The notes under the pieces: model-generated
Databases searched by the model: none
Told to the model about the DNA's origin: nothing
What the model saw: only the letters and a program-made list of their open reading frames with translations
Made by a program: the position numbers and the translations under genes
Assembly: GCF_900103425.1 (NCBI RefSeq)
Contig: NZ_FMXA01000004.1
Span: 62,001-126,000 of the forward strand
Direction: 5' to 3'
Source of the DNA: Dialister histaminiformans
GTDB taxonomy: Bacteria > Bacillota > Negativicutes > Veillonellales > Dialisteraceae
DNA: 64,000 nucleotides
Part shown: one piece after another, positions 54,034 to 62,497 of the stretch
How positions within the stretch are numbered: position 1 is the first letter of the stretch
Layout of the letters: the number at the start of each line of letters is the position of its first letter

Positions 54034-54165
54034 ATATGAGTGGGAATGTATCCTGAAATCCAGACAGAAGGTAAGGGATCAGACAAACTCCGGGAAATAC
54101 CTGGAGACACGCAGAGTGGGCAGGTCAGCTTTGTAAATTGCAGGCAGAAAGGAATTAGCCATAGT

Positions 54166-55023
54166 ATGGATAATAAACAGGTACTGATTGAAGTCAGTCA
54201 TCTGACACATATATATGAAACAGAAGGGGAAGCTCCCTTTTATGCATTGCGAGATGTATCATTGCAAATTAACAAGGGAGATTTTGTGGCCGTTATCGGG
54301 ACAAATGGGTCCGGTAAATCTACATTGGCCCGACATCTGGATGCCATTCTGCTTCCTTCGGAAGGGGATGTCCTTGTAGATGGCCTGTCTGTAAAAAATC
54401 CGGATGATGTCTGGAAAATCCGTCAGAAGGTGGGAATGGTTTTTCAGAACCCGGATAATCAGCTGGTGGCATCTATTGTAGAAGATGATGTAGCATTTGG
54501 GCCGGAAAATCTCGGTGTGCCCCGGGAAGAAATTATTGCACGGGTAGCTGATTCTCTGAAAAAGGTGGGCATGGAGTCGTATCGCAAACATTCTCCGTCC
54601 ATGCTTTCAGGTGGGCAGAAGCAGCGTATAGCCATTGCGGGTGTTCTTGCCATGCATCCGGAATGTATAGTTCTGGATGAACCTACAGCCATGCTGGATC
54701 CATCCGGAAGAAAAGAAGTTATGGAAACTATTCATCGTCTGAATAAGGAAATGGGGATTACCATTGTCCTCATCACTCATTTTATGGAAGAAGCGGTAAC
54801 CGCGAATCGGGTTGTGGTAATTCATAAGGGACAGATTACCGCCGATGGAACTCCGGAAGACGTATTCTCCAAAGTGGAGGAAATGAAAGCCGGTGGACTG
54901 GATGTTCCGGTCCCTACAGAACTTTCATATAGACTGGCACAGCTGGGGCTGCCGATTCGGGGAGATTGTATGACCAATAAAGAACTGGGAGAAGAGCTAT
55001 GTCGATTCGTGTTGAAAAAGTAA
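54166..55023 (+). CDS. ecfA1: ECF transporter ATPase EcfA1
   Basis: ABC ATPase of the energy-coupling-factor module, about 285 residues. Walker A GTNGSGKST, Q-loop FQNPDNQLV, signature LSGGQKQRIAIAG, Walker B CIVLDEPTAMLDP and the switch His in LITHFMEEA are intact. The start is ATG 54166; AAAGGA is about 11 nt upstream, slightly far. No clear promoter is seen in 54034-54165. It overlaps ecfA2 by 25 nt. Serves vitamin or queT-type S components. Confidence 0.93.
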   Translation: MDNKQVLIEVSHLTHIYETEGEAPFYALRDVSLQINKGDFVAVIGTNGSGKSTLARHLDAILLPSEGDVLVDGLSVKNPDDVWKIRQKVGMVFQNPDNQLVASIVEDDVAFGPENLGVPREEIIARVADSLKKVGMESYRKHSPSMLSGGQKQRIAIAGVLAMHPECIVLDEPTAMLDPSGRKEVMETIHRLNKEMGITIVLITHFMEEAVTANRVVVIHKGQITADGTPEDVFSKVEEMKAGGLDVPVPTELSYRLAQLGLPIRGDCMTNKELGEELCRFVLKK

Positions 55024-55868
55024 ACTATATATACGGAAAAGGAACTCCTTATGAAAGAAAAGCACTGGATGGAGTGAATCTGGAAATTCATAAAGGGGAG
55101 TTTGTCGGAATTATAGGGCATACGGGCAGCGGCAAGTCCACTCTGGTACAGCACCTTAATGGTCTGCTGCATCCTTCTGAAGGACGGGTTACCGTGGATG
55201 GTGTGGATCTGGCCGGAAAGGATAAGGAAACTATTGCGAAAAGACACTCCGTGGGAATGGTATTTCAGTATCCGGAACAGCAGCTGTTTGAGGAAACCGT
55301 AAAAAAGGATATTGCCTTTGGACCGACCAATATGGGGCTTGACGAAGGCAATGTGGAAAGACGGGTACGGCAGGCTATGGAATTCGTCAGGCTGGATTAT
55401 AATACCTATGCAGAACGGTCACCATTTCGGCTGTCCGGCGGTCAGCAGCGACGAGTAGCTATCGCAGGGGTTATTGCTATGCATCCTGATTTCCTGATTA
55501 TGGATGAACCGTCTGCCGGGCTGGATCCAGTGGGGCGTATGGAAATATTTTCCAGGGTAAAGGAATGGTTTGAAAAAAAATATTTCTCGGTTATTCTGGT
55601 TACCCATAATATGGATGATATCGCCCGCCTGGCCACACGTCTGCTGGTTATGCATAATGGACGGGTGGCTATGGATGGAAAACCTATGGATATATTCCTG
55701 AACCATCGGAAGGAGCTCCAGGCGTGCGGAGTGGATGTCCCACCGCTTACCGATACGTTGCTTTACCTTAAGAATCAGGGGATTCCGGTTCCCGAAACTG
55801 CACGTACCGTGCAGGAAGCGGCAGAAAAAATGGCGGATATGTTGAAAGGAGATACTCATGCTGACTGA
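54999..55868 (+). CDS. ecfA2: ECF transporter ATPase EcfA2
   Basis: Second ECF ATPase, 289 residues: Walker A GHTGSGKST, Q-loop FQYPEQQLF, signature LSGGQQRRVAIAG, Walker B FLIMDEPSAGLDP, switch His in LVTHNMDD. It overlaps ecfA1 (25 nt) and ecfT (11 nt), so the three genes are translationally coupled and form one module. Confidence 0.94.
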   Translation: MSIRVEKVNYIYGKGTPYERKALDGVNLEIHKGEFVGIIGHTGSGKSTLVQHLNGLLHPSEGRVTVDGVDLAGKDKETIAKRHSVGMVFQYPEQQLFEETVKKDIAFGPTNMGLDEGNVERRVRQAMEFVRLDYNTYAERSPFRLSGGQQRRVAIAGVIAMHPDFLIMDEPSAGLDPVGRMEIFSRVKEWFEKKYFSVILVTHNMDDIARLATRLLVMHNGRVAMDGKPMDIFLNHRKELQACGVDVPPLTDTLLYLKNQGIPVPETARTVQEAAEKMADMLKGDTHAD

Positions 55869-56658
55869 TATTACACTGGGGCAGTATTACCCGGGAAACT
55901 CCTTTCTTCACCGGATGGATCCACGGGCAAAGATTATATGTACCATGATTTTTATCACGGCTATATTTATTGCTGAATCTTTCTGGTCATATCTTCTGGT
56001 TACTGCTTTTTTGCTTATGACCATTTCCGTATCGGGAGTTCCCATAAAACTGATAGTAAAGGCGATAAAGCCATTGTGGTTCATCCTGGTATTTACATTT
56101 ATTATTCATCTGTTTACAACACCGGGGACGACGTTGTTTTATGCAGGGATAATTCATATTACCCGCGAAGGCATTATTCGTGGGACCTATATGACACTGC
56201 GGCTGGTTTACCTGATTGCCTTTTCGTCCTTGCTTACTTACACTACCAGTCCGATTGTATTGACAGATGGCATAGAGGCGCTTCTTACCCCGTGGAAACG
56301 GTTTGGTGTTCCGGCCCATGAACTGGCTATGATGATGTCTATTGCGCTTCGCTTTATTCCTACGCTTCTGGAAGAAACAGACCGTATTATGAAAGCACAG
56401 GCATCCCGTGGTGCAGATTTTACTACAGGAAATCTGATGCACAGGGCCAAAAGTATGATTCCGGTGCTGGTGCCGCTGTTTATTTCCGCATTCCGTCGTG
56501 CCGATGAACTGGCTACCGCCATGGAAGCCAGATGTTACCGGGGTGGTGAAGGCAGGACAAAGATGCACCAGCTTCAATATACGGGGCGGGATAGCATTGG
56601 ATTTGCGGCCGTTGTGGCGGTTACTGCACTATTGATTGGAATGCGTATAATGAGCTGA
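55858..56658 (+). CDS. ecfT: ECF transporter transmembrane scaffold EcfT
   Basis: Integral scaffold protein, 266 residues with several membrane helices. The two cytoplasmic coupling motifs that contact the ATPases are visible as AQASRGAD and AMEARCYRGG. It starts inside the 3' end of ecfA2. With EcfA1/A2 it can energize several S components; QueT at 6.5 kb is a candidate client. Confidence 0.93.
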   Translation: MLTDITLGQYYPGNSFLHRMDPRAKIICTMIFITAIFIAESFWSYLLVTAFLLMTISVSGVPIKLIVKAIKPLWFILVFTFIIHLFTTPGTTLFYAGIIHITREGIIRGTYMTLRLVYLIAFSSLLTYTTSPIVLTDGIEALLTPWKRFGVPAHELAMMMSIALRFIPTLLEETDRIMKAQASRGADFTTGNLMHRAKSMIPVLVPLFISAFRRADELATAMEARCYRGGEGRTKMHQLQYTGRDSIGFAAVVAVTALLIGMRIMS

Positions 56659-56671
56659 AAATAAGGATGTT

Positions 56672-57472
56672 ATGAAAAGAAATATATGGATTACCGTTTC
56701 CTATGAGGGGACAGCCTATGCAGGGTTTCAACGACAGCCGGTCGCTATGACTGTGCAGAAGGCCATTGAAGAGGCATTGCTGCAGATTACCGGGGTATCG
56801 ACTACACTGTATTTCGTGGCGCGTACTGATGCAGGGGTACATGCCTGGGGGCAGGAATGCACATTCTATACAGAATCCCGTGTACCGGGAGATAAGTTTA
56901 AATATGCATTGAATGCCATTTTGCCACGGGATATTCGTGTCCGTGAAAGCCGGGAGGTAGCTGAAGATTTTTCCGTAAGACGTATGAATTATGGAAAAAC
57001 GTATGCCTACAATATATGGCAGGACAGGGATGTCTCTCCTTTTATGCGGCGATATGTGTGGGCGCTGGGGAGAGAGCTCAATGTGGAAAAGATGCGGGCA
57101 GTGGCCGCCAAACTGGTGGGACGCCATGATTTCACTTCGTTTAGAGGTAATAATTCGGTGCCATCGGATCCAGTAAGAAATCTTATGGATATACGCATAG
57201 AGGCAAAAGGACGACTCATCCGTATCTATGTCACGGGCGAAGGATTTTTGTATCATATGGTACGGAATATTGCCGGCGCACTGGCTGACGCCGGTCAGGG
57301 GAAACTTTCACCTGAAGAATTAGTAAATATACTGAAAGCCAGGGACAGAAGAAAGCTTGGCGTTACAGCACCTGCAGAGGGACTCTGTCTGTTGCAGGTG
57401 TATTTTGAACCGGTTACCGAATCGGATATTAAGGCGACACTGGCACAGGATTACTGGCCATGGACGAGATAA
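56672..57472 (+). CDS. truA: tRNA pseudouridine synthase A
   Basis: Makes pseudouridine at tRNA positions 38-40, 266 residues. Catalytic Asp is in the ARTDAGVHAWGQ block; SYEGTAYAGFQRQP, FRGNNSVPSDPVRN and FLYHMVRNIAGAL are family segments. It follows ecfT after 13 nt, the usual Firmicute pairing. Its 3' end forms half of the following terminator. Confidence 0.95.
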   Translation: MKRNIWITVSYEGTAYAGFQRQPVAMTVQKAIEEALLQITGVSTTLYFVARTDAGVHAWGQECTFYTESRVPGDKFKYALNAILPRDIRVRESREVAEDFSVRRMNYGKTYAYNIWQDRDVSPFMRRYVWALGRELNVEKMRAVAAKLVGRHDFTSFRGNNSVPSDPVRNLMDIRIEAKGRLIRIYVTGEGFLYHMVRNIAGALADAGQGKLSPEELVNILKARDRRKLGVTAPAEGLCLLQVYFEPVTESDIKATLAQDYWPWTR

Positions 57473-57490
57473 GAGGTCCATGGCCTTTTT
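57456..57490 (+). terminator. Terminator overlapping the truA 3' end
   Basis: GGCCATGGAC (57456-57465, inside truA) pairs with GTCCATGGCC (57476-57485), followed by TTTTT. Confidence 0.85.
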
Positions 57491-57516
57491 CTATGGATGA
57501 ATTTACGGTATGATTA

Positions 57517-57552
57517 TGTTAAAATCAAATAGAACGATTTAATCATTTGATT
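57517..57552 (+). promoter_or_regulatory. Promoter and putative operator of the TetR-RND operon
   Basis: Extended -10 TGTTAAAAT (57517-57525) overlaps a perfect inverted repeat AATCAAAT (57523-57530) and ATTTGATT (57545-57552), spaced by 14 nt. The 30-bp site lies across the predicted start of transcription, well placed for repression. Confidence 0.6.
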
Positions 57553-57564
57553 GAAGGGAATAAA

Positions 57565-58365
57565 ATGACAGCAGAAGAGCGAATAGTGATGGTTGCCAGG
57601 GAACTGTTTCTGAATCATGGATATGAATCGGTTTCTCTTCGGGACATAGCGAAGGAAGCGGATGTAGCTCCTTCCGCGATTTCTTATTATTTTGGAAGCA
57701 AACAGGAATTATATGAAGAACTGTTTCCTGATAAAGCGGCGGAGGAACCGACTTCTGTTCAGGAAAAGATAGAATATGCAGCTCTGTCTTTGTTTGCCGA
57801 TATGGGATATGAGCGGGTCACAATCCGGGATATTTCACGCAAGGCCGGAGTAAACAGTGCGTCTATTTCCTATTATTTTGGGGGAAAGATGAATCTGTAC
57901 ATGACCATCCTGCGGGTAGGTGCAGAACGAATCAAAGAAAGATTGGAACGACAGAAATGTCATTTTCGAAACCCACAGGATGTAATTCATTATCATATAC
58001 AGGCACTGGGAGAGTTACTGGTTATGTATCCGGAAGCCATCCGGATTATGCAATGGGAGCTGGTTAATCCTACGGAACCATTTAAAGAGATATGGAATAC
58101 GCTATATCGCCCGTTATTCAGTGATATTTATTGTGCACTCGAGGAAGGAATTTCCAGGGGGATTTTCCGAAAAGAAATAAATCCGCGGTGTGCATGTATT
58201 TTATTTATTAATATGATTTTTAATTTTTTCACAATAAAAGGAAACCAGATGATTGATGGGATTATGGGGGCAGAGGAGAGTATTTCTCAGGAAGATTACT
58301 TTAAGGAGGTAGAAGACCTGGTTGTGAATGGTATTCTGATAGCTGAAGATGGAGGAATGAAATGA
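57565..58365 (+). CDS. TetR-family regulator with two tandem DNA-binding domains
   Basis: 266 residues, longer than the usual 190-220. Two TetR-type helix-turn-helix domains occur in series: residues about 5-52 (LFLNHGYESVSLRDIAKEAD, SAISYYFGSKQELY) and about 66-114 (LFADMGYERVTIRDISRKAG, ASISYYFGGKMNLY), with a 12-residue linker. Each is a complete N-terminal domain. One ligand/dimerization domain follows (CecR/DUF1956-like, MYPEAIRIMQWELVNPTEPF). ATG 57565 has AAGGGA upstream; the earlier TTG lies in the operator. It overlaps the MFP gene by ATGA, so it probably regulates the efflux operon that it heads. Confidence 0.85.
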   Translation: MTAEERIVMVARELFLNHGYESVSLRDIAKEADVAPSAISYYFGSKQELYEELFPDKAAEEPTSVQEKIEYAALSLFADMGYERVTIRDISRKAGVNSASISYYFGGKMNLYMTILRVGAERIKERLERQKCHFRNPQDVIHYHIQALGELLVMYPEAIRIMQWELVNPTEPFKEIWNTLYRPLFSDIYCALEEGISRGIFRKEINPRCACILFINMIFNFFTIKGNQMIDGIMGAEESISQEDYFKEVEDLVVNGILIAEDGGMK

Positions 58366-59429
58366 AAACAATTACAAAAGCAGGTGCATTTATTCTGGCC
58401 GGAGTGTTCCTCCTGACTGCGGGATGCGGGAATAATGAAGTGGAGACTCAGCAGAGCCCGCTGGTTAAAACGATTACTGTAGGAGAAAAGGATTCGGAAA
58501 ATGATACCACTTTTTCCGGTACCGTCCATGGATATTATGAATCTCCACTGGCATTTCAGGTTAGCGGTCAGATTACCAATCGATATGTACAGGCTGGGGA
58601 CAGGGTCAGAGCGGGACAGCCGTTGTTCCGTGTAGACTCCCGGGACGCGATGGATCAGGTAGATGCAGCAAGAAGTTCAGTGATTTCTGCACAGGCATCT
58701 TATAAGCTGGCAAGCTCCACGTTATCACGCTATAAGGCGCTGCATAGGGAAAATGCCATATCTGACCTGGCCATGGACCAGACACAGAGCCAGTATGATG
58801 TGGCTGCTGCGCAGCTTCAGCAGGCAAAGGCAACACTGAGCCGCTCCCAGAACAATCTGGGGTATACTACGCTTCGAGCTGATAGAAACGGAGTTATCGG
58901 GTCTACCATGTATGAAGTCGGGCAGGTGGTCTCTGCAGGAACTCCTGTGGTACTGGTAGTGGATGACCGGCAGAAGGAAGTACATATTTCCTTAACGGAA
59001 AAACAGTACAATCAGTATTCTGTGGGGATGCCGTGTACCGTAACTTTCTGGGCGCTTCCTAATGTGATGGTACATGGGGTTATTAAAGAGAAGGCTGCAT
59101 CACCGGATGCGGCTACAGGAACTTATGATACCAAGGTTTCTCTTGCAGACTGCCCGGCCGAAGTTACTCTTGGCATGACCGCGCAGGTCAGCATGGACGA
59201 TAATCTCAGTGGAAATAAATCTGTAGTTATACCGCTTACGGCAATAGCCACACAATCCAGCCAGCCCAGTGTATGGGTAGTAGAAAATGGACGGGTGAAG
59301 CTGGTGAAGGTTACTGTAGGAAAATATGGAAATGACTCTGTAGAAATAACCTCCGGACTGAAAAGTGGGGATAAGGTGGTTACGGCAGGGGCTTCCAATC
59401 TGACACAGGGAGAAGAGGTTCGCGTATGA
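58362..59429 (+). CDS. RND efflux membrane-fusion lipoprotein
   Basis: Periplasmic adaptor of the HlyD/AcrA family, 355 residues. Lipobox LLTAGC with Cys22. Biotinyl-like half GQITNRYVQAGDRVRAGQPL, an alpha-hairpin (about residues 85-155), the second half YTTLRADRNGVIGS and a beta-barrel domain follow. It links the inner-membrane RND pump to an outer-membrane channel. Start and stop overlap neighbours by 4 nt each. Confidence 0.92.
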   Translation: MKTITKAGAFILAGVFLLTAGCGNNEVETQQSPLVKTITVGEKDSENDTTFSGTVHGYYESPLAFQVSGQITNRYVQAGDRVRAGQPLFRVDSRDAMDQVDAARSSVISAQASYKLASSTLSRYKALHRENAISDLAMDQTQSQYDVAAAQLQQAKATLSRSQNNLGYTTLRADRNGVIGSTMYEVGQVVSAGTPVVLVVDDRQKEVHISLTEKQYNQYSVGMPCTVTFWALPNVMVHGVIKEKAASPDAATGTYDTKVSLADCPAEVTLGMTAQVSMDDNLSGNKSVVIPLTAIATQSSQPSVWVVENGRVKLVKVTVGKYGNDSVEITSGLKSGDKVVTAGASNLTQGEEVRV

Positions 59430-62400
59430 AGGATTTTAACGTAGCAGAGTGGTCGATTAAGCACGTTCAGATTGTCTTTTTCTTCATTCTTGCTATTTTA
59501 GTCGGCGGGTTATGGTCATATTTCAATCTTGGGCGCAGCGAAGATCCGAATTTTACAATCCGGACCATGGTGATTACCGTGGCCTGGCCGGGAGCTTCAC
59601 CGGAGCAGATAGTAAAACAGGTGACCGATCCGTTGGAAAAAAATCTGCAGGATACCCGGGATTTGGATTACATAAAATCCTTTACGCATGATGGGAAGAC
59701 GGTAATTTATGTCTATCTCAAGGATTCTGTTCCCGCGTCAGAGCTTCAAAAACATTGGACCGAGGTTCGCAACTCTGTAGAGGATATGTGGAGTCAGCTT
59801 CCTTCCGGGGTAGTGGGACCTTACATCAATGACCGGTTTGACGATGTGTATGGCACCATTTATGCAGTGACCGGGGACGATTACTCCTATGAAGAAAAGC
59901 GAAAGTATGCAGAAGATATAAGGCAGAGGCTTCTTCGTGTGCCGGATGTCCAGAGGGTGCAGCTTCTGGGAGTTCAGCAGCAGATGATTTATGTGGAGAT
60001 GAACCAAGATAAACTGGCATCGATGGGGATAAGTCCTGATTCTATTTTTCAGATTATCCAGCAACAGGGAACCATGATGCCATCGGGGACCATTCATACC
60101 GATACGAGGAACATAGCCATTCGTGTAGAAGGACTTCTGGGGACACCGGAAGCGTTGGAAAATCTGCCTGTACATGTAGGGAACCAGACTTTCCATCTGG
60201 GGGATATAGCTCAGGTAAAACAAACGTATACAGATCCTGCATCCTCCATGATGTACTATAATGGAAAGCCTGCAATTGGTATTGCGGTGTCTATGACGCC
60301 CGGTGGCAATAATCTGACGCTTGGGGAAAACCTTCAGAAAGCGGTGGAGGAAATGAAACCCAACCTGCCGCTGGGGCTTAATGTGTCCCTCGTAGCGGAT
60401 CAGCCCAAGGTGGTTAATGATTCGATTTCTGAATTTACTGAGTCGCTGATTGAAGCCATAGTGATTGTTATGGCGGCCAGCTTTATCTCGCTGGGGATGC
60501 GGAGTGGTGTGGTACTTGCCCTTTGCATTCCTGTAGTGGTATGTGGTTCGTTCCTCTTTATGGAATTCAAGGGAATTGACCTGCAGCGTGTATCTCTGGG
60601 GGCACTTATTGTATCGCTTGGGATTCTGGTGGATGATGCCATCATTGTCATTGAAATGATGCAGGTAAAACTGGAGCAGGGATACAGTCGTATGGAAGCG
60701 GCACAGACAGCTTATCGTTCATGTGCTGCCTCCATGCTGGCGGGTACACTGATTACTATTGCCGGGTTTATTCCCGTTGGTTTTGCACCTGGTAAGACCG
60801 CAGAGTACACAAACTCTCTGTTCTGGGTCATCGGGGCTACGCTTCTGATTTCCTGGCTTGCCTCTCTCTTTGTTTCTCCTGTTCTGGGGTATCAGATGAT
60901 ACAGGTGCATAAAGAAAAGAAGAAAAAGGGAAAACTGGGGGATCGTCTGTATCAGATTTTTGATCGGTCAGTCCGCTGGTGCATCCGGTATAAACGCACA
61001 GTTATGCTGGCTACAGCCGGTGGGTTTGTGCTGACAATGCTGTTAATCCCGCTGGTCAAACAGGAGTTCTTCCCGGATTCGGTGCGGCCGGAAATTATTT
61101 TTGATGTGGAGTTGCCGTCAGGAGCCTCTATTCAGGATACGCAGCGCGTTCTTGGCGGGATGGCAGATATGCTGTATGGAGACAAGAGGGTATCTTCCTT
61201 TGCTTCTTATATCGGTGAAAGTGCACCGCGTTTTATTCTTCTTTTTGACCCCAAAGCACCGGATAATAGTTACGGGCAGATGATTATCGTAGCCTCTGAT
61301 CAGGAATCCCGGGATACGCTGCGAGCTGAATTAACTAAAAAGATAGCCATGCAGTATCCTTCGGTGCGAGTACATTCCCGGCTGATTCAAACCGGGCCGC
61401 CGGCAGAATATCCGGTTATGTTCCGCATCAGTGCCAATACGCAGGCACAAACCGTGGCATTGGCACAGAAAGCTCTGGCAGAAATGAAGACGGATCCACG
61501 CATCCGGAATGCAAGTATCGACTGGCCACAGGAAACTCCATCGGTTAGAGTGACGGTTGATCAGGATAAGGTGCGTACATTGGGAATCGATAATTATGAA
61601 GTATCCCGGAATCTGTATGTACAGCTGTCAGGATATAAGGTGTCGGAATCCTATCAGGGGGATCAGCTGGTACCGATTTCCTTTAAACTGGAAGGTGATA
61701 ACGCATCTCGGTTGGATAAGCTGGCTACACTTCCTATTTATGTGGGGAATGGGCGCTATGCCCCGTTGGGGACTTTTGCTGACATCTCATATGAAAATGA
61801 AATCAGTACAATCTGGCGTAGAAATCTGCAGCCTACCATCACATTGAGTGCAGAGGTCATCCCGGGAGCCAAAGGGGATACAGTAGCTTCAGATCTGTAT
61901 AACACCACGTTTAAGAGTTTCCGTGAACATCTTCCGGAAGGGGCATCACTGGAAAAAGGGGGCACTCTGGAATTATCCGATGAATCGTTACAGGATCTGA
62001 TGAAGCCGCTGCCCATTATGATTTTCTTCATCCTGGCAGTGCTCATGTTTGATCTGCAGGATATTCCAAAGATGGTAATGGCGGCAATCACGGGTCCGTT
62101 GGGACTGATAGGAGCCATCCTGACATTGCTTATCACCAGGCAACCTATAGGATTTATGTCTATTATCGGAATGATTGCCATTTCCGGGATGGTCATCAGG
62201 AACAGCATTATTCTGCTTGATCAGATTAAGCAGCATCTCAATCTGGGGATGACGCCCTATGAAGCTGTGGTAAGTTCCGCGGCGTTGCGATTCCGTCCGA
62301 TTATGCTTTCTTCGGGAACTGATCTGCTGGGGATGGTTCCTTTGATTCCTAACCCATTCTGGGCGCCTATGGCGGTGTCCTTCATTGGAGGGCTTATGTT

Positions 62401-62497
62401 GGCTACAGCGATTGGACTCCTGGTACTTCCGGCCATGTATTGCTGGTGGTATAAGATTGATGAACCAAAGGTCCAGGGGGAAGACGCTGATAACTGA
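59426..62497 (+). CDS. RND-family efflux transporter (AcrB/MdtB type)
   Basis: Proton-driven trimeric pump, 1023 residues, full length with twelve membrane helices and two large periplasmic domains. It begins FNVAEWSIKHVQIVFFFILA; WPGASPEQIVKQVTDPLEKN opens the porter domain. Helix 4 has the proton-relay pair in SLGILVDDAIIVIEMM, and helix 10-11 reads GMIAISGMVIRNSIILLDQI. It overlaps the adaptor gene. No TolC-type outer-membrane gene follows. Substrates are unknown. Confidence 0.94.
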   Translation: MKDFNVAEWSIKHVQIVFFFILAILVGGLWSYFNLGRSEDPNFTIRTMVITVAWPGASPEQIVKQVTDPLEKNLQDTRDLDYIKSFTHDGKTVIYVYLKDSVPASELQKHWTEVRNSVEDMWSQLPSGVVGPYINDRFDDVYGTIYAVTGDDYSYEEKRKYAEDIRQRLLRVPDVQRVQLLGVQQQMIYVEMNQDKLASMGISPDSIFQIIQQQGTMMPSGTIHTDTRNIAIRVEGLLGTPEALENLPVHVGNQTFHLGDIAQVKQTYTDPASSMMYYNGKPAIGIAVSMTPGGNNLTLGENLQKAVEEMKPNLPLGLNVSLVADQPKVVNDSISEFTESLIEAIVIVMAASFISLGMRSGVVLALCIPVVVCGSFLFMEFKGIDLQRVSLGALIVSLGILVDDAIIVIEMMQVKLEQGYSRMEAAQTAYRSCAASMLAGTLITIAGFIPVGFAPGKTAEYTNSLFWVIGATLLISWLASLFVSPVLGYQMIQVHKEKKKKGKLGDRLYQIFDRSVRWCIRYKRTVMLATAGGFVLTMLLIPLVKQEFFPDSVRPEIIFDVELPSGASIQDTQRVLGGMADMLYGDKRVSSFASYIGESAPRFILLFDPKAPDNSYGQMIIVASDQESRDTLRAELTKKIAMQYPSVRVHSRLIQTGPPAEYPVMFRISANTQAQTVALAQKALAEMKTDPRIRNASIDWPQETPSVRVTVDQDKVRTLGIDNYEVSRNLYVQLSGYKVSESYQGDQLVPISFKLEGDNASRLDKLATLPIYVGNGRYAPLGTFADISYENEISTIWRRNLQPTITLSAEVIPGAKGDTVASDLYNTTFKSFREHLPEGASLEKGGTLELSDESLQDLMKPLPIMIFFILAVLMFDLQDIPKMVMAAITGPLGLIGAILTLLITRQPIGFMSIIGMIAISGMVIRNSIILLDQIKQHLNLGMTPYEAVVSSAALRFRPIMLSSGTDLLGMVPLIPNPFWAPMAVSFIGGLMLATAIGLLVLPAMYCWWYKIDEPKVQGEDADN

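Follow-up and report, generated by a model that had tools for sequence, protein, structure and literature searches.

TetR regulators, which also serve as components of biosensors, are among the commonest switches in bacteria; to our knowledge, nearly all of them have one DNA-binding head per chain. QacR-type regulators occupy four half-sites by means of two dimers (PMC6018408; DarR, PMC10636190). In Mce3R of Mycobacterium tuberculosis two entire TetR proteins are fused (1-205 and 206-406); each half has a ligand-binding part of its own, and the protein folds on itself and reads an asymmetric site (PMC11667970). AraC-type activators such as Rob also contain two helix-turn-helix motifs per chain (PMC6018408).

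Here we describe a TetR-family protein with two adjacent heads, encoded in a 64,000-nucleotide stretch of the Dialister histaminiformans genome (contig NZ_FMXA01000004.1, positions 62,001 to 126,000), referred to below as the window and numbered from its first letter. The nearest described protein is Mce3R. Both carry two TetR DNA-binding heads per chain, but those of the window protein are adjacent, 62 residues apart, and share one C-terminal domain; a ligand-binding domain after each head is absent, because the 62-residue period leaves no room between the heads and the structure model contains one C-terminal domain. The likeness proposed to QacR and DarR is four heads on two overlapping palindromes, supplied in those systems by two dimers of single-head chains, whereas here two chains would suffice. 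Rob resembles the window protein in principle only, through two helix-turn-helix motifs in one polypeptide, since its fold is unrelated and its motifs are of different origin. CecR/YbiH-like single-head regulators of HlyD-ABC operons, from the same class, share the C-terminal domain, the recognition helix of the second head and the operator half-sites, but have one head and for the most part neighbour ABC exporters instead of an RND pump. Identity with CecR itself was rejected by the curated cut-off (NCBIfam NF008587, 62.5 bits against an equivalog cut-off of 365). In the open-licence literature we found no description of a TetR protein with two adjacent heads and one body, and only Mce3R emerged. 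The architecture is an unusual but modest variation on the familiar TetR design.

Gene, predicted fold and operon

The regulator gene lies at 57565-58365 on the forward strand, exactly where the initial annotation had placed it, in an open frame without a stop whose translation gives a product of 266 residues. A mechanically made list of open reading frames opens at TTG 57547; this codon falls within the conserved operator described below, and ATG 57565, preceded by GAAGGG, is therefore the likely start codon. The initial annotation had proposed two complete tandem TetR helix-turn-helix domains followed by a single C-terminal domain, and our analyses bear this out. Pfam TetR_N, the N-terminal helix-turn-helix of the TetR family, matches two stretches, with 103.5 bits in all (E 5e-30, gathering cut-off 24), and a profile built on the heads of the family itself scores them at 90.0 and 91.7 bits with a spacing of exactly 62 residues. 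The repeated patterns on which the proposal was based are present as GYESVSLRDI and GYERVTIRDI, and as ISYYFGSKQELY and ISYYFGGKMNLY.

The extra N-terminal head, HTH1 (residues 6-53, 57580-57723, forward strand; best Pfam stretch 8-53), has the recognition helix VAPSAISYYFGSK. A variable linker (residues 54-65, 57724-57759, forward strand), in which pLDDT falls below 50 at residues 57-59, joins it to HTH2 (residues 66-115, 57760-57909, forward strand), the head that matches the single-head relatives and has the recognition helix VNSASISYYFGGK. Residues 116-266 (57910-58362, forward strand) form the single C-terminal ligand-binding and dimerisation domain, assigned from a weak TetR_C_29 match (23.9 bits, cut-off 26.2) and from model superposition.

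The AlphaFold2 monomer has a mean pLDDT of 82 and a pTM of 0.63, at which the placement of the heads relative to each other is uncertain, and the alignment behind the prediction, drawn from window proteins and related loci, covers HTH2 poorly. Predicted helices fall at residues 3-18, 25-32, 36-43 and 46-53 in HTH1 and at 65-80, 87-94, 98-105 and 108-131 in HTH2, after which the C-terminal helices reach residue 255. Over residues 62-260 the model superposes on entire single-head TetR regulators, most closely on B. subtilis FadR (Z 18.6, rmsd 2.6 Å, 183 aligned) and also on the other TetR chains listed, with an all-helical C-terminal domain in the TetR arrangement; by sequence and fold, the window protein is a member of the TetR family. 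HTH1 folded alone reaches a pLDDT of 93.9, and 50 of the 50 structural matches listed for it are TetR-family chains (best Z 11.9, rmsd 2.0, 60 aligned). Both heads are thus predicted to fold as TetR DNA-binding domains, and the predicted DNA-binding surface of HTH1 is intact, which answers the initial annotation's concern that one head might lack such a surface. Among the structural matches listed, none is a PDB chain that bears an additional TetR head at its N-terminus.

The regulator gene stands behind truA and heads an operon of overlapping genes. Its stop is overlapped by the start of a periplasmic adaptor gene (HlyD/RND_mfp, 58362-59429, forward strand; TIGR01730, 260.4 bits, cut-off 94.9), whose stop is overlapped in turn by the start of the last operon gene, an RND efflux transporter (59426-62497, forward strand; ACR_tran PF00873, 524.9 bits). 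The next open frame, from 62715, encodes a TypA/BipA-like GTPase, named by eye. Upstream of truA, at 54040-56658, lies an energy-coupling-factor transporter module of two ATPases and a transmembrane protein (also named by eye), which keeps this order in most genomes of the family.

The genomes G000, G001 and G002 have truA, regulator, adaptor and pump in this order. Regulator, adaptor and pump are also together in G008 and G010, where truA is more distant, and in G009, where truA was not found within the stretch read. In G005-G007 the pump is elsewhere, behind the apparent end of a different TetR gene; at these loci (L143, L142 and L141 for G005, G006 and G007) the pump operon has moved and the double-head regulator has stayed near truA without it, truA being on the opposite strand in G005. 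Two further genomes, G003 (L144) and G011 (L145), have the adaptor directly behind truA and keep the pump; regulator and operator motif are missing together, which counts in favour of the explanation proposed below. The adaptor gene of G011 is split into two frames. Outside this arrangement, a single-head relative in G131 (L154) directly precedes an adaptor and an RND pump that are 41 and 44% identical to those of the window, forming an unduplicated counterpart; its operator differs (AAATGATCATTT) and its helix reads VNIA.

Distribution and probable origin of the added head

Of 12 genomes from the same taxonomic family, nine, the window's own among them, encode a full-length ortholog with both heads. 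They span three genera, the other family orthologs are 37-47% identical to the window protein, and the head-to-head spacing is 60-62 residues in all of them. Across the class, 122 of 380 genomes have a match at 1e-20, but only the nine match across both heads; the remaining matches start at about position 60 and so cover HTH2 and the C-terminal domain only. A query consisting of the two heads alone recovered the same nine among the class genomes, and all 35 named genome loci that we inspected are single-head. The search for the double architecture in other Negativicutes, which the initial annotation had proposed, places it in nine family genomes, with single-headed relatives in the other class genomes that have a match. 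Full-length and two-head searches of 398 sampled genomes of the phylum returned nothing besides the window's own gene that matches both heads; phyla beyond it were covered by peptide pattern only, and plasmids gave no match spanning more than 80% of the query. The double-head architecture is real, conserved and narrow in distribution.

The two heads of one protein are 42-56% identical, and HTH1 has a mean identity of 47% to HTH2 and of 42% to the single-head relatives. Among orthologs, mean identity is highest in HTH2 (71%), followed by HTH1 (55%), the C-terminal domain (41%) and the linker (31%), and the dN/dS of HTH1 is 0.05-0.44 in computable pairs, some dS values being saturated. Judged from this identity and from dN/dS, HTH1 is under purifying selection and kept by it. 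Residues S37, Y41, Y42, G44 and K46 of HTH1 are invariant across the aligned orthologs, while its recognition helix is variable at the reading positions (APS, PAS, SVS, NVS, GPS, SAS); that of HTH2, VNSA-ISYYFGGK, is shared with the single-head relatives.

A tree built from 95 heads places HTH1 and HTH2 together with the single-head relatives from the class and separates them from most of the other TetR proteins that these genomes encode. Eight of the nine HTH1 copies form one group; with fork support of 80/83 and only 52 columns, resolution is weak. At the DNA level the two heads share one in-register repeat of 17 nt (94%) and nothing longer. Because HTH2 and the C-terminal domain correspond to a whole single-head protein, HTH1 is the added head and was probably duplicated, and internal duplication is the simplest account of it. 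Fusion with an unrelated TetR protein is disfavoured by the position of HTH1 among the relatives of HTH2, in a tree whose 52 columns cannot settle the matter. The grouping of heads supports the domain duplication put forward in the initial annotation; its further suggestion, that the protein recognises extended or paired sites, gains support from the operators described next, which do not thereby prove binding by HTH1.

Predicted operators of double-head and single-head genes

The predicted operator, AATAGAACGATTTAATCATTTGATT, is a 25-bp pseudo-palindrome at 57528-57552 on the forward strand, centred at 57540. It contains four half-sites, arranged as two AATC-N4-GATT-type units 13 bp apart, of which the left one is degenerate. 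It differs from AATCNNNNGATTNAATCNNNNGATT by one mismatch, a fit reached in 0 of 200 shuffles, and is the sole copy within the window. Alignment of the upstream regions of the nine orthologs gives a core, AACGATTTAATCATT (57533-57547, forward strand), that is kept in all three genera, and a related motif precedes all nine double-head genes, those of G010 and G006 being the most diverged. The pattern GAACNRTYYAATCRTTT, drawn from these upstream regions, has six perfect matches in the 12 family genomes, each before a double-head gene, and the window's genome holds only one further match to the core pattern at one mismatch.

The extent of the operator varies among the double-head genes. In g1 and g3, the window's genus and a sister genus, they match the two-unit 25-bp frame at 1-3 mismatches, a fit that 0 of 200 shuffles reached in each case, and show the two overlapping or adjoining palindromes expected for a dimer of dimers. 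This form is not kept in the third genus, g2, where 6-7 mismatches to the frame are not above chance, the outer half-sites are gone and only the core persists; here the motif precedes the promoter, at some distance ahead of the start, instead of lying at the start. A search for a pump-side operator at the moved g2 pump operons found none, and a sigma-70 promoter scan of 57460-57600 gave no match.

The same units are found before the genes of single-head relatives. Two AATC-N4-GATT units are spaced exactly 13 bp apart in 18 of 63 single-head upstream regions (expected 0.00), and a -10-like hexamer lies no more than 14 nt before a unit in 26 of the 63 (expected 0.5), which is where a repressor would sit. 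In these relatives, recognition helices with NS mostly pair with AATC-N4-GATT, and NV and most NI helices with AAAC-N4-GTTT or AAATGATCATTT; since helix and half-site vary together, the assignment of the sites to these proteins is supported. The AATC-N4-GATT units look like the ancestral operator grammar. Because the four-half-site operator also precedes single-head genes, however, it does not prove by itself that HTH1 binds DNA. As a separate observation, the second reading residue, S versus V or I, tracks AATC/GATT versus mostly AAAC/GTTT, a simple class-wide helix-to-operator code (upstream regions L111, L112, L113, L153, L156, L159, L163-L166, L174, L180-L183, L188 and L190).

A proposed four-headed dimer and its alternatives

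We propose that an ancestral single-head regulator gained a second, N-terminal head through internal duplication. HTH2 and the C-terminal domain would represent the old protein, and HTH1, on a short variable linker, would have retained its DNA-binding surface while its recognition helix changed. The protein would repress its own operon of regulator, adaptor and RND pump from a site at the promoter, and we consider it very probable that it acts as a local repressor. If dimerisation follows the usual TetR way, the C-terminal domains would pair two chains and give four heads per dimer, so that one dimer could grip the 25-bp operator at 57528-57552, where single-head relatives would need two dimers for four half-sites. 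A pump substrate or another ligand in the C-terminal pocket would then cause release from the operator. Contact of HTH1 with DNA seems somewhat probable to us; the placing of all four heads on one operator is tentative, and it is slightly more doubtful still that a single four-headed dimer covalently replaced a cooperative pair of dimers on an operator inherited from single-head ancestors. For the explanation as a whole, an auto-repressor with a duplicated head that binds the 25-bp operator as a four-headed dimer and is released by ligand, we estimate a probability of about 0.5. Its main doubt is the role of HTH1: g2 has lost the outer half-sites yet keeps both heads, and HTH1 evolves faster than HTH2 (55% versus 71% identity), as a relaxed domain might.

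The same observations bear on the possibility that only HTH2 recognises the operator, in one ordinary dimer or in two, with HTH1 acting non-specifically as a steric, stabilising or DNA-holding element. HTH2, where conservation within the protein is highest, carries the recognition helix of the ancestor, the HTH1 helix varies at the reading positions, and g2 conserves only the 15-bp core. Yet the DNA-facing tyrosines and lysine of HTH1 are kept in all aligned orthologs, and HTH1 is under purifying selection and is conserved above the C-terminal domain; we regard this possibility as unlikely. The heads might instead serve different sites, HTH2 at the adjacent operator and HTH1 at a second site, near or far, resulting in bridging, looping or control of a second promoter. 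Differing recognition helices and a variable linker would suit such an arrangement, as would the g2 motif far upstream of the start and the pump operon behind another TetR gene in three genomes; against it, the adjacent half-sites of g1 and g3 are enough for four heads, and the genome offers only one further one-mismatch core match, in a search blind to an HTH1-specific site of other sequence. We consider this distinctly improbable.

The reading of the protein as a relic or an artefact, with one head either duplicated in assembly or copied recently and without function, has a probability close to nil. Internal duplication is a known type of assembly error, and the initial annotation had named it as a possible refutation, but the two heads occur in nine genomes, have diverged to 42-56% identity, include no disabled copies and bear the marks of purifying selection; assembly duplication is ruled out by the nine orthologs together with this divergence, and the two-head arrangement is genuine.

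Single-head relatives with the same C-terminal domain, recognition helix and operator half-sites allow a direct comparison with the two-head form, which makes it testable how regulators gain heads and whether avidity within a chain can replace cooperation between dimers. If the four-headed dimer is real, it would provide one-step, high-avidity repression of an RND pump operon and would show how a dimer of dimers can naturally give way to a four-headed one; through its link to the pump, the finding is relevant to the control of efflux in diderm Firmicutes.
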